Assembly (NCBI RefSeq): GCF_001648895.1 | Contig: NZ_LXUF01000011.1 | Coordinates: 62,001 to 126,000, forward strand | Source of the DNA: Methylovorus sp. MM2 | Lineage (GTDB): Bacteria; Pseudomonadota; Gammaproteobacteria; Burkholderiales; Methylophilaceae | Length of the DNA stretch: 64,000 nucleotides | Direction of reading: 5' to 3' | Notes under the pieces: model-generated | What the model was told of the DNA's origin: nothing | Seen by the model: only the letters and a program-made list of their open reading frames with translations | The model's database searches: none | In this document: one piece after another, positions 13,473-19,194 of the stretch | How positions within the stretch are numbered: the stretch's first letter is position 1 | Layout of the letters: the number at the start of each line of letters is the position of its first letter | Position numbers and translations under genes: made by a program

Positions 13473-14138
13473 TTAGAGATTAAGCAACGTAGATACCGTG
13501 GCAGGCGCTATATCCAACTGCCACGGCACGAGCCCGATGCAAGGTGCATTGATACGCTGCTTGAGGGCTATGAGATTTTCTTCAAACACAGGCATTTCAG
13601 GGTCAAGCTGATTTGCAACCCAGCCAACCAAATTGAGCCCTCGGGATTCAATGGCTTGCACGGTAAGCATGGCATGATTGATACAGCCTAGCCGCATAGC
13701 GACGACCATGATCACCGGAAGGTTTAATTGAACTGCCAAATCCGCTGTGTCAGCATGCGCGTTCAATGGCACACAAAACCCGCCGACACCTTCAACTATA
13801 ACCACATCTGCCTGCTGCTTTAACTGGTGATAGGCTGTGACGATGTTATCTAACGATATCTCGATGCCCGCATTTTCTGCGGCGATATGAGGCGCGATCG
13901 CTAGCGCAAAAGCGTATGGATTCACTTGGTCGATTGGCGCTTCAATATTACTGGCAGCTAATAGACTCGCCACATCTTCAGAAATCAGTCGTCCATCTTT
14001 TAGCTCACACCCGGCAGCCACTGGCTTCATGCCGACTGATTTTAACCCCTTCGCAGCAAACGCCATGACCAACGCAGACGATATAAGGGTTTTACCAACG
14101 CCTGTATCTGTACCGGTAATAAAATAGGATAACGTCAT
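13473..14138 (-). CDS. bioD: dethiobiotin synthetase
   Basis: BioD closes the ureido ring of dethiobiotin from DAPA, CO2 and ATP. The product has 221 residues with the P-loop TGTDTGVGKT at residues 8-17, MKPVAAGCE near 37 and EGVGGFCVPL near 115, all family signatures. It is the last gene of the five-gene bio cluster on the minus strand, and its start overlaps the bioC stop by 4 bases, which suggests translational coupling. Confidence 0.96.
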   Translation of the reverse strand: MTLSYFITGTDTGVGKTLISSALVMAFAAKGLKSVGMKPVAAGCELKDGRLISEDVASLLAASNIEAPIDQVNPYAFALAIAPHIAAENAGIEISLDNIVTAYHQLKQQADVVIVEGVGGFCVPLNAHADTADLAVQLNLPVIMVVAMRLGCINHAMLTVQAIESRGLNLVGWVANQLDPEMPVFEENLIALKQRINAPCIGLVPWQLDIAPATVSTLLNL

Positions 14139-15007
14139 GTTCGTTTATAGAAAGTGACTGGCACAGCAGCATCCGTTGCCACCTTGGCCTCAGACTTCCA
14201 AGCATGGCCGTAGACAACTTCAAATGTGGCGGGCAATTTACCTTGAACCCTGAATTGCTCGTAAGCTGAGGTTAGTTTTTTCAAGAACCCTTTACCTTCA
14301 AGACCGCGTCTCCGGCCTTCAGTGGCGTTATGTGCCCCTATCGCTTTTAAATCGCGCATGACTCCCATGACATCATCATAGGTCAGCACATACCGCTCGA
14401 CATCCAGCACCGGCGCCGAATACCCTGCACGGACAAGCGCATCCCCGATATCATGCATGTCGATGAACCGGCTGACATGTATATGCTCGGCATCCACATT
14501 AGATGCTGCGCGCAGCTCTTTCAGGGTATCAGGGCCAAAAGTGCTGAACATCAACAATCCACCTGGCTCCAGTACCCGCGACATCTCGCCAAATGCAAGA
14601 TCGAGATCATTGCACCACTGCACGGCAAGGTTGGACCACACGAGGTCAACACTATGATCAGCAAGCGGCAAATGCTCGATATCGGCACAAATAGCCTCAT
14701 GCGAGACCAGGCCCAGCATACGCTTAAATAATGATTGTCTGGACAACGTCTTTTTGAGCATGCTCATGGCGATATCCAGCGAAATGATACGGGCTTGCTT
14801 ATAACGCTGGCCTAACTCGATACTTGCAGGGCCTGTTCCACAGCCAGCATCCAGAATCACATTGGGTGATATCTTGACGAGCTCCAGACGCTCGAACATA
14901 CGTTCACGTACTTCTTTCTGTAGCACAGCCGCTGCATCATAACTATCAGCAGCACGGTCAAATGAAGCACGAACGCGCGCTTTATCTATTCGGTAAATAT
15001 CGTTCAT
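14135..15007 (-). CDS. bioC: malonyl-ACP O-methyltransferase BioC
   Basis: BioC methylates malonyl-ACP so that fatty acid synthesis can build the pimeloyl chain of biotin. It has 290 residues. SAM-binding motif I is LDAGCGTGPASIEL (about residues 52-65), with LVWSNLAVQWCND and GGLLMFSTFGPDTLKELR typical for BioC. It begins 2 bases after bioH and overlaps bioD. Together with bioH it gives the complete BioC-BioH route to pimeloyl-ACP. Confidence 0.95.
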   Translation of the reverse strand: MNDIYRIDKARVRASFDRAADSYDAAAVLQKEVRERMFERLELVKISPNVILDAGCGTGPASIELGQRYKQARIISLDIAMSMLKKTLSRQSLFKRMLGLVSHEAICADIEHLPLADHSVDLVWSNLAVQWCNDLDLAFGEMSRVLEPGGLLMFSTFGPDTLKELRAASNVDAEHIHVSRFIDMHDIGDALVRAGYSAPVLDVERYVLTYDDVMGVMRDLKAIGAHNATEGRRRGLEGKGFLKKLTSAYEQFRVQGKLPATFEVVYGHAWKSEAKVATDAAVPVTFYKRT

Positions 15008-15009
15008 AC

Positions 15010-15804
15010 TTAATCAACGACCACAGCTGCTGGCTCCAAAAACTGTACCAAAGCATCAACAAATTGTTCCGAATGAGAGAGAAAAGGCGCATGTGATGCA
15101 CCTGCAATCACCCTCAACCGCCCAAACGGCAGACTTTGCGCAAGCCATTGTGCCGCTTGCAGTGGTGCCAAAGTATCGCGATCACCATGAATCAATAGCG
15201 TTGGTTTCTTTAATTCTTGCAGCTCGGTGCGTAAATCACTCTCCAGCAAAATACGTAAGGCTTTTTGCAATGAACCCAATGTTGGTACAGGACGCTCAGC
15301 GAATGTAGTGCGTAACTGCTTCACCGTAGCGCGCGCATCATCAGACCGCATGCACTGAAGTGTTAAGAACTTGATCAAGGTCGTTTGGTAATCTTGCCCG
15401 ATATCAGCAGCAAACTTTCTAAAAACATCGGCATCCATACCATCATGCCAATCCTCGTCGTCCACAAATTTTGGGGTAGCGCCGATCAATATCAGGCGAC
15501 GCAATCTATCTGGATGTGTAAGTGCGATACGCATGGCAATCAGGCCACCGAGCGACCAGCCACAGACATCTGCATTTTCAGGTAATACATTGGCTACCGC
15601 TTCTGCAACGCTATCCAAACCAGCCGGCTCGATCGGTCTGCTAAAACCCATACCCGGCAGATCAATCACATGGACACAAAAATATTTGGCGAGCTTTTTC
15701 ACAATCGGTTGCCAAACACCACCATGCATGCCCCAGCCGTGAATCAACACAAGATTCGGTGCAGCTTCATTTTCCTGACCGAATTTTTCTACATATAAAC
15801 TCAT
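15010..15804 (-). CDS. bioH: pimeloyl-ACP methyl ester carboxylesterase BioH
   Basis: BioH is an alpha/beta hydrolase that removes the methyl group from pimeloyl-ACP methyl ester and so ends BioC-driven chain growth. It has 264 residues. The nucleophile elbow is GWSLGG with Ser84, the acid is in HGDRDTLAP, and the histidine is in GASHAPFLSH near the C-terminus. HGWGMHGGVW near residue 22 forms the oxyanion hole. The gene overlaps bioF by 4 bases and is 2 bases from bioC, so it belongs to the operon, unlike the stand-alone bioH of E. coli. Confidence 0.95.
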   Translation of the reverse strand: MSLYVEKFGQENEAAPNLVLIHGWGMHGGVWQPIVKKLAKYFCVHVIDLPGMGFSRPIEPAGLDSVAEAVANVLPENADVCGWSLGGLIAMRIALTHPDRLRRLILIGATPKFVDDEDWHDGMDADVFRKFAADIGQDYQTTLIKFLTLQCMRSDDARATVKQLRTTFAERPVPTLGSLQKALRILLESDLRTELQELKKPTLLIHGDRDTLAPLQAAQWLAQSLPFGRLRVIAGASHAPFLSHSEQFVDALVQFLEPAAVVVD

Positions 15805-16976
15805 GCCGCCATCTCGCTTTCGGCATCGTTCAATGATTGAATCAACTGCGCAACGTCATGCTCGCTATGCGCTGCAGAGAGGGATATTCTCAAACGGGCT
15901 GTATCTTTAGGCACCGTTGGTGGTCGTATCGCAGGAACCAATATATTCTTTGTTAGCAAATACTCACTTAGCGCCAAAGCCTCTTCATTAGAGCCAACAA
16001 TCAATGGTTGTATCGCAGTGACAGATTCTTCCAGCTTCCATCTTTTTAATTGCAAACCGGATTTAAGCAAGCTAATTAAGCCTTGTAAATGCACTCTTCT
16101 CGACTCATCTCGCTTGATGATTTCCAGCGCTTTGATCAATGTTGCAGATATTGCCGGAGGACTTGCCGTCGTATAGATATAAGTACGCGCATTCTGCAAA
16201 AGATAGTCGATGACGATCTGGTCGGCAGCGACAAAAGCGCCAAATACACCAGCAGCTTTACCTAGTGTCGCCATGTAGATGATGCGTGGTGAGGTCAGAT
16301 TGAAATGACTTAAGGTACCGCGCCCTTCTTTACCCAATACACCAAACCCGTGTGCGTCATCCAACAACAGCAAAGCATCATACTTTTCACACAGGGCAAG
16401 CAAAGCTGGAACTGGTGTCAAATCTCCATCCATACTGAATACGGCATCTGCCACAACAAGTTTACGCGGCGCATTGCTTGTTTTAAGCATGGCTTCTAAG
16501 GCACTGAGATCATTATGTGGATATCGGTAGAGCTCAGCACGCGAGAGCACCGCCGCATCATTCAAGGAGGCATGATTTAAGCGATCGGCAAACACTGCAT
16601 CCCCTCGACCGAGCAGCGCAGTCATGATGCCGAGATTCGCCATATAGCCAGTTGAGAAAAGCAAGGCAGCAGGCAATCCGATGAAATCTGCCAGCGCTTT
16701 TTCAAGCAACTCATGATAATGGTGGTGACCAGTAATCAAATGGGATGCGCCACTACCGACACCAGCAATATTCGCAGACTGTTGCCATGCATTGATAAGT
16801 TCAGGGTCGTTCGCCAACCCGAGATAGTCGTTACTACAGAAAGATAGTACCGTTTGGCCGTCACATTTGATGTGTACGCCCTGAGCGGTTTCAAGCAAAC
16901 GGCGGCGGCGGGTCAACCCCGCTGCATCACGCTCTTGTAATTGAGCCGCTAGCCCGGCAAATAGTTTGTCTGACAC
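15801..16976 (-). CDS. bioF: 8-amino-7-oxononanoate synthase
   Basis: BioF is a PLP enzyme that condenses pimeloyl-ACP with alanine in biotin synthesis. It has 391 residues. The PLP lysine is Lys240 in MATLGKAAGVFG, the cofactor aspartate/histidine motif is DDAHGFG at 206-212, and SNDYLGLA near residue 48 is characteristic of alpha-oxoamine synthases. It follows bioB by 21 bases and overlaps bioH by 4. I see no bioA in the window, so the DAPA aminotransferase must be encoded elsewhere. Confidence 0.95.
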   Translation of the reverse strand: MSDKLFAGLAAQLQERDAAGLTRRRRLLETAQGVHIKCDGQTVLSFCSNDYLGLANDPELINAWQQSANIAGVGSGASHLITGHHHYHELLEKALADFIGLPAALLFSTGYMANLGIMTALLGRGDAVFADRLNHASLNDAAVLSRAELYRYPHNDLSALEAMLKTSNAPRKLVVADAVFSMDGDLTPVPALLALCEKYDALLLLDDAHGFGVLGKEGRGTLSHFNLTSPRIIYMATLGKAAGVFGAFVAADQIVIDYLLQNARTYIYTTASPPAISATLIKALEIIKRDESRRVHLQGLISLLKSGLQLKRWKLEESVTAIQPLIVGSNEEALALSEYLLTKNILVPAIRPPTVPKDTARLRISLSAAHSEHDVAQLIQSLNDAESEMAA

Positions 16977-16997: not shown

Positions 16998-18002
16998 TTA
17001 AGCTGGGTGGATGCCCAGTTTGGCAAATAACTTCTTATCTGTCTCTGCCTCTGGATTACCTGTAGTCAGTAGCTTTTCACCGTAGAAGATCGAATTGGCA
17101 CCCGCGATGAAACATAATGCCTGTATACCCTCATGCATGCTTTGTCGACCGGCTGACAAGCGCACATAGCTCTTCGGCATCGTGATACGTGCTGCCGCGA
17201 TAGTACGCACGAACTCAAAAGGATCCAGCTCATCCGTACCATGTAATGGCGTACCCTCGACTTGGGTCAGCAGGTTGATCGGCACACTTTCTGGTGGGCG
17301 TTCCATATTGGCTAGTTGCGCAAGCAGGCCAGCACGTTGGTTGCGTGATTCCCCCATGCCGATGATACCGCCACAGCACACATTGATATCCGCATCGCGC
17401 ACACGATCCAATGTATCCAAACGATCCTGATAAGTACGGGTGGTGATCACATCACCGTAGAACTCAGGCGCTGTATCCAGATTATGGTTGTAGTAATCAA
17501 GGCCAGCATCCTTTAACTGTTCGGCCTGACCATCTTTCAGCATGCCTAGCGTGGCACAGGTTTCTAGGCCCATGGCTTTGACTTCGGCGATCATCTTCAA
17601 TACAGGTTCAAGATCCCGCTGTTTAGGGCTACGCCAAGCTGCACCCATACAGAAACGGCTAGCGCCATTTTCTTTCGCTGCACGAGCAGCACTTAATACT
17701 TCATCCAACGGCATCAAAGGCTCAGCCTCAACCTCTGTATGATAGCGAGCCGCTTGCGGGCAGTAGCCGCAATCTTCAGAACAGCCGCCAGTTTTGATTG
17801 AGAGTAGCGTACTTACCTGTACCGCGTTAGGATCAAAATGCTCACGATGCACCGTCTGTGCTTGATGTATCAGATCGCTAAAAGGCATTTCAAAAAGCCC
17901 CACGATCTCTTCTACACTCCACCGCTTCTCGATTTTAGATTCACGGATTGTACGTTCGATGCCTCGAATATCAATGACGGAATTAGCGACTTGCTCAAGC
18001 AT
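16998..18002 (-). CDS. bioB: biotin synthase
   Basis: BioB is the radical-SAM enzyme that inserts sulfur into dethiobiotin. The product has 334 residues. The 4Fe-4S ligands are the CxxxCxxC cysteines Cys74, Cys78 and Cys81 ([12 protein letters not shown]). [13 protein letters not shown] and the GGIIGMGES segment are BioB signatures. A good ribosome-binding site (GGAG) precedes the ATG at 18002. It lies 12 bases after a small membrane-protein gene that seems to be the first gene of the same operon, behind a BirA-like operator. Confidence 0.97.
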
Positions 18003-18014
18003 GTATGATCTCCA

Positions 18015-18410
18015 TTAATCAGTTTCTACCTGCATATCTTGCCAGGGTTCTCTTTTCGCACGCAAAATATCACGCACACCAAAAGGCACTACAATCAAAA
18101 TACTTACAATCCATACGATCAATATCAAATTGAGCGTACCACCCGCTAACTTCGATAACTGCGAACTAAAATTAAGCAAAGCCACTAATCCGCCGACTAC
18201 ACCGTAAAAACGATATCCCGAATACTTTACGTAGTCGCAGATTTTTGCATTAGGATGGCAAGCCAAGGATGCATAGACAAAAATAGAAGCGGCGATCCAT
18301 AAGAACATAGGAAAGATTGTCGGTAGTAAAATCACCGATACGCTGGAAAAAAAGGCAAAACTTTGTGCGGCATGCATTTGCTGCTTGGCAGTAATCGTTT
18401 TAGTCGCCAT
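18015..18410 (-). CDS. unknown small membrane protein, first gene of the bio operon
   Basis: I do not recognise this 131-residue protein. It has a short polar N-terminus and several hydrophobic stretches: about residues 18-50 (one long or two close helices, FAFFSSVSVILLPTIFPMF and on), about 68-85, and about 93-112. It ends in a charged tail, RAKREPWQDMQVETD. That makes three or four membrane helices and no signal peptide. It is not like BioY, which is longer and differently arranged. It lies 12 bases upstream of bioB on the same strand, and the only promoter-like sequence with the BirA-like operator is upstream of it. So it is probably co-regulated by biotin. A role in biotin or precursor handling is inference only. 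Confidence 0.8.
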   Translation of the reverse strand: MATKTITAKQQMHAAQSFAFFSSVSVILLPTIFPMFLWIAASIFVYASLACHPNAKICDYVKYSGYRFYGVVGGLVALLNFSSQLSKLAGGTLNLILIVWIVSILIVVPFGVRDILRAKREPWQDMQVETD

Positions 18411-18465
18411 TATTTACCAACCTTAACTGGGCATTTTTGAGATGCCCTTATTGAGAATAGTGCTA

Positions 18466-18506
18466 ATTATACCTTGTCAAACAGAAAGACAACAAATGGT
18501 TAACAA
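18466..18506 (-). promoter_or_regulatory. bio operon promoter with BirA-like operator
   Basis: On the minus strand an exact TATAAT (18471-18466) can serve as the -10 box of the bio operon, with a weak TTGTTG at an 18-base spacing. Over the spacer and -35 region lie two half sites, TTGTCAAAC (18474-18482) and GGTTAACAA (18498-18506), separated by 15 bases. The BirA operator consensus known from Gram-negative bacteria is TTGTAAACC, 14-16 bases, GGTTTACAA. The left half matches at 7 of 9 positions and the right at 8 of 9. BirA bound here would block the promoter when biotin is plentiful. The operator also covers the probable comF start codon on the other strand. Confidence 0.72.
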
Positions 18507-19194
18507 GTGGTTAAAATTTAATCAGTTGTTATTTCCACAAAAATGTATGTTGTGCGCAACAATGGATGGCGGCGCACTAGGTATATGCCAGCCATGCGGA
18601 GATGCATTGCCTTGGCACAACACCATACCCCAATGTCCGCAATGTGCTTTACCGTCTATAGACAGCAATGTATGTGGGCATTGCCTCACCGCTCCACCAG
18701 CATTTGATCGTATCCATGCGCTGTTCCGCTATGAGTATCCGATTGATGCGATGCTACAACGTTATAAATACCAGCATTTACTCACGATGGCCGCGTTATT
18801 TGGCGAAATGATGATGACTGAATTACCACGCGCCAATCTGCCCGACCTGATCATCCCCATGCCTTTACACCCGCAACGGCTGAAAGAGCGCAGCTTTAAT
18901 CAATCCCTTGAAATTGCACGCATCATTGCCAATCGCTTAGATATCAGATTAGCTGCACAAAGTTGCTCACGCACGAGAAATACACCACCACAAGCCAGCC
19001 TGCCAATGAAAGAACGTACTAAAAACATGAAAGACGCTTTCGCTTGCAATGAAAACTTGAGCGGATTACATATCGCGGTCGTGGATGACGTGATGACAAC
19101 AGGCGCAAGCCTGAATGCATTGGCAAAAACACTGAAAAAAGCAGGGGCGGCAAGTGTAGAATGCTGGGTTGTCGCAAGAACCTTACCCAGATAG
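18496..19194 (+). CDS. ComF family phosphoribosyltransferase-like protein
   Basis: This is a ComF/GntX-type protein, related to a competence factor and to amidophosphoribosyltransferases. Two pairs of CxxC cysteines near the N-terminus (CMLC, CQPC, then CPQC, CGHC) probably bind zinc. The PRPP-binding motif is AVVDDVMTTGAS in the C-terminal third. From the ATG at 18496 it has 232 residues and the usual N-terminus ending in LLFPQKCMLC. A start at 18442 would add 18 untypical residues. The ATG lies inside the BirA-like operator, so biotin control of this gene cannot be excluded. The exact function of the family is unsettled. Confidence 0.88.
   Translation: MVNKWLKFNQLLFPQKCMLCATMDGGALGICQPCGDALPWHNTIPQCPQCALPSIDSNVCGHCLTAPPAFDRIHALFRYEYPIDAMLQRYKYQHLLTMAALFGEMMMTELPRANLPDLIIPMPLHPQRLKERSFNQSLEIARIIANRLDIRLAAQSCSRTRNTPPQASLPMKERTKNMKDAFACNENLSGLHIAVVDDVMTTGASLNALAKTLKKAGAASVECWVVARTLPR

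Follow-up and report, generated by a model that had tools for sequence, protein, structure and literature searches.

A membrane protein of no named family leads the biotin operon behind a putative BirA-type operator in Methylovorus sp. MM2 and its relatives

Introduction

Why does a biotin operon begin with a gene for a small membrane protein that belongs to no named family? To our knowledge, biotin synthesis is usually taken as fully listed, variants of pimelate synthesis apart. A gene that many bacterial families keep in first place in the operon, and that no family model covers, would be a part of biotin synthesis missing from that list. Such a gene lies in a 64-kb stretch of the genome of Methylovorus sp. 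MM2 (Methylophilaceae), which we call the window. In this study, we ask how the gene is placed and controlled, how widely it accompanies biotin genes, and what the protein is likely to do there.

Results

The membrane-protein gene (18015..18410, minus strand) is an ORF of 131 aa with an ATG start and is the first gene of the bio operon. From its end it is 12 bases to bioB, for biotin synthase (16998..18002), which is followed on the same strand by bioF (15801..16976), bioH (15010..15804), bioC (14135..15007) and bioD (13473..14138). NCBIfam models above their cut-offs identify bioB (TIGR00433, 414 bits, cut-off 225), bioH (TIGR01738, 277.5 bits, cut-off 207), bioC (TIGR02072, 240 bits, cut-off 185) and bioD (TIGR00347, 173 bits, cut-off 83); bioF is named by its ORF sequence and has tblastn matches in relatives. 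On the plus strand a comF/gntX-like gene (18442..19194) runs divergently, with DZR_2 and Pribosyltran over their cut-offs and the NCBIfam models TIGR00201 and GntX both below theirs. The gene order in the window sequence is comF (divergent)/membrane gene-bioB-bioF-bioH-bioC-bioD. The true start of comF is likely to be the ATG at 18496, and since this codon would fall inside the putative operator, BirA could act on comF as well as on the bio operon.

The putative BirA-type operator (18474..18506, minus strand) is an inverted repeat of two half sites, TTGTCAAAC at 18474-18482 and GGTTAACAA at 18498-18506, with 15 bases between them. Read on the minus strand, the upstream sequence is TTGTTAACC-N15-GTTTGACAA-GG-TATAAT, with the -10 box TATAAT (18466..18471) two bases off the operator half site. 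The arrangement is the one looked for in a BirA-controlled operon, namely, two 9-base half sites in inverted orientation at a promoter, with 14-16 bases between them. Scored against an E. coli-type BirA consensus, the operator agrees at 15 of 18 positions and is the best among the matches listed in the 64-kb window. A sequence-only reading of this DNA had described a membrane gene leading the bio operon behind such an operator, with this score, this gap and an exact minus-strand TATAAT, and in each of these points it was right. When the 255-base upstream stretch was dinucleotide-shuffled 200 times, no shuffle reached the operator's score (any base being allowed at position 5 of each half). The pattern TTGTNAA-N19-TTNACAA has a single exact occurrence in the window, without mismatch; with up to one mismatch allowed it also turned up in 22 of 100 shuffles of the 64-kb sequence, so that taken by itself this pattern does not settle the matter over such a length. 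The promoter pairs a perfect -10 TATAAT with a weak -35 (TTGTTG, 3/6, spacer of 18 bases), and it is absent from the list given by a consensus promoter scan of the window. Just upstream of the operator, an AT-rich stretch (18507-18535) holds an imperfect inverted repeat (TGATTAA...TTAATCA-like) that recurs in many of the family loci L002-L028 and is perhaps an UP element or an additional half site.

Comparison between genomes indicates that the operator is more than chance, because the composite GTNAA-N18-20-TTNACA(A/G)NNTATAAT, which joins a half site to TATAAT, was found once each in 13 of 61 genomes and in all of them just upstream of the membrane gene. The reversed composite pattern, our control, was found in none of the 61 genomes. 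The shorter pattern TTNACA(A/G)-N1-3-TATAAT (N not C) is present at 33 of 55 family loci and in 3 of 17,600 shuffled sequences. A half site abutting TATAAT, a pattern that like the composite was derived from the family and shows locus specificity rather than discovery, occurs at 24 of 29 family loci with the membrane gene, at 9 of 26 without it and at none of 33 loci of other families. Since family loci without the gene also have the half site and TATAAT, the operator appears to be a property of the bio operon, with the membrane gene behind it where the gene is present.

A check proposed with the sequence-only reading, a scan of the upstream regions of homologues for the same half sites, gave positive results beyond the family. 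At 29 distant loci of the class, the E. coli consensus found a BirA-type box at p<=0.05 in 16 and a shaped consensus found one in 10, and distant relatives carry sites like TTGTAAACC-N16-GGTTGACAG between comF and the membrane gene. We also examined the best 80 of 151 named loci, which come from Methylophilaceae, Sulfuricella, Sulfuriferula, Gallionellaceae, Thiobacillus and others. Among these 80, a box at p<=0.05 was found in 18 with the E. coli consensus and in 49 with TTGTYAAAN..NTTTRACAA, which is a close variant of the shaped consensus and likewise partly circular, the independent figure being the 16 of 29. A Thiobacillus example reads ATGTTCAAT-N15-ATTTGACAG, 29 bases ahead of the membrane gene. 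By itself the E. coli consensus performs poorly at those loci of the window's order that lie beyond the family. There the shaped consensus, at p<=0.05, finds a box in 18 of 28 loci with a BirA match over the helix-turn-helix (HTH) region and in 0 of 5 without one (hypergeometric 0.013, calculated by hand and ignoring kinship, with the consensus shaped on the same loci and the test partly circular); within the family it finds one in 12 of 55 loci only (300-base stretches). As a second BirA target we considered bioA, which lies at other loci, and ruled it out: upstream of 30 bioA loci there was no convincing BirA-type site, the best score being 11/16.

The genome encodes one biotin ligase, in which HTH_11 (9-58; 49.6 bits, cut-off 25), BPL_LplA_LipB and BPL_C all exceed their cut-offs. 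The ligase model TIGR00121 also scores above its cut-off, and five full-length BirA repressor models and a repressor-domain model score below theirs. The second PF03099 match in the genome is, by sequence and neighbour as judged by eye, a LipB-like gene adjoining a lipoyl-synthase gene. In 59 of 60 family genomes the alignment with the BirA of Methylovorus sp. MM2 starts at the protein's first residues and takes in the HTH, and the sole genome without a BirA match is 72% complete; in 40 further genomes of the order the match begins at residue 15 or earlier in 29 and after residue 60 in 11. A proteobacterial survey (PMC5343134) describes the BirA DNA-binding domain as lost in the betaproteobacteria studied there, and that finding, as far as its account extends, is not valid for the window's family. 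BioY occurs in 3 of 61 genomes (G068, G076, G078), each of which belongs to the 11 genomes with a BirA match that leaves out the HTH region.

How closely is the membrane gene tied to biotin genes? The protein was found in 34 of 100 relatives, 30 of them among the 60 family genomes and 4 among the other 40. Its best copy adjoins bioB in 33 of the 34; the remaining one is a fragment from a genome that is 75% complete. Among 369 genomes of the class, which in GTDB unites beta- and gammaproteobacteria, 55 carry the protein, spread over the window's family and 26 other families. The sequence-only reading would have been contradicted by homologues without any link to bio genes or BirA sites; we saw the opposite, with the gene beside bioB in 51 of the 55 class carriers (including G166, which has just a bioB fragment at a contig end) and in 77 of the 80 named loci examined. 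In two other carriers (G220, G335) it stands beside bioC, with bioB elsewhere, and in the last two (G167, G298) it has stayed by comF only, with bioB elsewhere and without a clear BirA site (11/16, p 0.03 in one). A phylum sample of 398 genomes gave 3 matches, all within the window's order. Of 135 copies of the gene that share their locus with bioB, 134 lie on bioB's strand, and the single opposite-strand copy is most likely a divergent paralogue in L011. The gap to bioB has a median of -4 over the copies when measured from the most upstream start codon, a measure that is biased towards overlap and was set aside. Four Methylobacillus loci (L216, L217, L218, L222) have bioB beside the gene and no comF match beside it. 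At two further loci, L296 and L300 (G271, G125), the operon is again headed by the membrane protein and preceded by a BirA-type box, and its BioB is divergent (31-35% identical); in G271 another copy of the membrane protein lies away from bio genes, in L297.

The gene is missing from 30 of the 60 family genomes. A bioB match is present in 26 of the 30, so the membrane gene is not essential for synthesis. Because half of the family genomes do without it and ten paralogues lie elsewhere, the gene is, by gene content, accessory; about half of the family has biotin genes without it.

Profile searches placed the window protein in no Pfam or NCBIfam family, which agrees with the earlier statement that its family is not a known one. 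The 32 close members likewise have no Pfam family, and the 30 members of set A3 (26 class-wide loci) have neither a Pfam nor an NCBIfam family, barring scattered weak matches. For the window protein, weak matches to DUF1467, YIF1 and two NCBIfam models all fell below cut-offs; for the members, no scattered family reached more than 8 of 32 or 3 of 30, and these matches, among them a PgaD model (E 0.0002, 2 of 30) and UbiA (E 0.00029, 2 of 30), were judged noise. BioY (PF02632) gave no profile match with the window protein or with the 32 and 30 members, and it is absent from all 37 family genomes searched, G000 included; the claim that the protein is not BioY is borne out. A relationship to DUF4870 (PF09685)/Tic20-like proteins, suspected from a look at the sequence, was rejected: hhalign gave probabilities of 0.9 and 7.6 against two alignments, with ten usable DUF4870 rows (an eleventh was one stray residue), and hmmscan gave no match. 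SMR exporters carry an acidic residue in TM1. They were rejected as well, with no Pfam match and a mean of 0.00 (A2) and 0.10 (A3) Asp plus Glu in TM1.

The AlphaFold2 model, built from 58 rows, has four long helices and short end strands (pLDDT 91.2, pTM 0.81). The earlier description as a protein of membrane helices stands, and its count of three to four becomes four long helices in the model. Foldseek returned 0 of 27 matches at E<=0.001, with only generic helical bundles among the compared chains; a second structure aligner gave a best Z of 7.7 to 6w6x, a helical-bundle protein, and the best hit of a PDB sequence search had E 0.048. Across 140 sequences, W38, S42, P53, Y69 and W123 are invariant to rounding, H52, R67, A15 and A47 reach 99% and D114 96%. 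There is no conserved Cys and one nearly invariant His, which is doubled (HHP) in many members. By lysine and arginine counts, the two ends and the second loop are assigned to the cytosol, and from these counts the invariant cluster (W38, S42, H52-P53, Y66-R67-Y69, D114, W123) is predicted to lie mostly towards the cytosolic side. The protein is thus probably a four-helix inner-membrane protein with both ends in the cytosol.

Ten further copies lie outside bio operons in 9 of the 100 relatives (eight family genomes and G086). Four of these ten (L063, L064, L067, L071) have a TonB-dependent receptor of the heme/copper type (scores below cut-offs) no more than about 600 bases away, a neighbourhood that is a possible second functional setting of the protein family. 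The others lie between an Rrf2 regulator (NsrR-like) and cytochrome oxidase subunits of a heme-copper oxidase (L065), by an NnrS-like gene (L070, by eye), after an EmrA-like efflux gene (L072), and by LysR and/or comF genes (L066, L068, L069, by eye). In a tree of low resolution, the paralogues fall among rows of the window's order and the named betaproteobacteria, not among the class-wide rows L180-L208. W38 and W123 can be absent among paralogues (L067, L071), and three named copies without bio genes (L234, L236, L244) have no BirA box. The widespread form is thus the bio-linked one.

Discussion

Because it comes first in the bio operon of many proteobacteria, often behind a BirA-like switch, the membrane protein probably belongs to biotin metabolism. 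We infer that BirA represses the operon in a biotin-dependent manner. On the E. coli model, as far as PMC5438404 sets it out, BirA with biotinyl-AMP would dimerise on the operator at high biotin and turn off both the membrane gene and the bio genes, and both would be made at low biotin. The four-helix inner-membrane protein might then take up or retain biotin or a precursor, and would probably work as an oligomer or an accessory subunit.

Apart from biosynthesis genes, the genes that BirA is known to control serve mostly in biotin uptake. We put uptake or salvage first because of this, because BioY is absent from the family genomes searched (0 of 37) and because some paralogues lie by TonB receptors. 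Of the two roles that the sequence-only reading proposed, a transporter part or a new biotin-related factor, both are candidates. That the protein is the leading cistron of a BirA-controlled bio operon with a job in the uptake or salvage of biotin or a precursor is a tentative reading, to which we give somewhat less than an even chance. Against transport stand the lack of similarity to any transporter and a length of 131 residues, small for a transporter; 6 of the 10 paralogue contexts are away from TonB receptors, one with a heme-copper oxidase and one with an NnrS-like gene. The family genomes with bioB but no membrane gene, the two genomes that keep the gene by comF only and the bioA loci with no such operator also count against the favoured reading. 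BirA also controls non-uptake genes in some lineages, and the account in PMC5343134 includes such an exception, the fatty-acid genes under BirA in Desulfovibrionales.

We favour, in second place, a membrane partner of biotin enzymes, which would tether BioB (or a BioB/BioF/BioC assembly) to the membrane or supply BioB with electrons or cluster repair via the conserved cytosolic-side cluster. The position of the gene, mostly directly ahead of bioB and on the same strand, would suit such a partner, as would conserved Trp, Tyr, His and Arg mostly on the predicted cytosolic side, and the single paralogues by heme-copper oxidase and NnrS-like genes hint at a redox setting. However, the gene stands before bioC with bioB elsewhere in two genomes and bioB is gone altogether from beside it in two more, 26 family genomes have bioB without it, and the protein offers no conserved Cys and a near-invariant His (HHP in many members) that is not a recognised cofactor site; we consider a partner role rather unlikely. 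An exporter or relief valve, through which surplus intermediates (pimelate, KAPA, desthiobiotin) would leave the cell when the operon is derepressed, shares the regulatory logic and the membrane location, and one paralogue follows an EmrA-like efflux gene (L072), but the profile searches matched no pump family and the acidic TM1 residue of SMR exporters is missing. Such a valve seems improbable.

The protein might also have nothing to do with biotin and be a general membrane protein that lies between comF and bioB by ancestry. Its proximity to comF fits a known neighbourhood, since PMC5438404 in its treatment of these genes has comF beside biotin genes; two genomes retain comF and the membrane gene after the departure of bioB, and paralogues work elsewhere. 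Yet the four Methylobacillus loci have bioB but no comF match beside the gene, BirA-type boxes precede the gene in distant relatives, and the three named copies without bio genes have no box. We hold such an inherited position to be as improbable as export, and return to uptake or salvage as the favoured reading.

What is already known, by the account in PMC5438404, is the comF-bio neighbourhood and BirA control. Our searches of the open-access literature showed no account of this membrane gene, and none that places BirA sites in either Methylophilaceae or Thiobacillus. The survey in PMC5343134, as far as its account of proteobacterial regulons goes, gives no BirA regulon in the betaproteobacterial species studied, and our results suggest that betaproteobacteria outside the species surveyed there have such regulons, with a shifted recognition sequence. 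It is conceivable, though we would not quite wager on it, that these observations reflect both a betaproteobacterial BirA regulon and an undescribed family dedicated to the biotin pathway, whose members would dock biotin enzymes or move a vitamer in a way unlike BioY, BioP/YigM or ECF systems.

Several known systems resemble this locus in part. DUF4870 (PF09685) is also a helical membrane protein, of about 115 aa, but has no profile similarity to the window protein. BioY, the biotin uptake component, has about 6 helices and can be under BirA control. Both it (PF02632) and the window protein are membrane proteins, but the two have no sequence match, and the window protein has 4 helices. The comFC/gntX-bioH neighbourhood (Akatsuka, cited in PMC5438404) likewise has comF divergent from biotin genes, and in what PMC5438404 says of it no membrane-protein gene is mentioned between them. 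The E. coli bio operon, described in part by PMC5438404, likewise combines an inverted-repeat operator at the bio promoter with a bifunctional BirA that has an HTH. Here, in contrast, an extra membrane-protein gene leads the operon; comF, not bioA, is divergent; and the half sites drift from the E. coli bio operator towards TTGTyAAAT/ATTTrACAA in the window's order.
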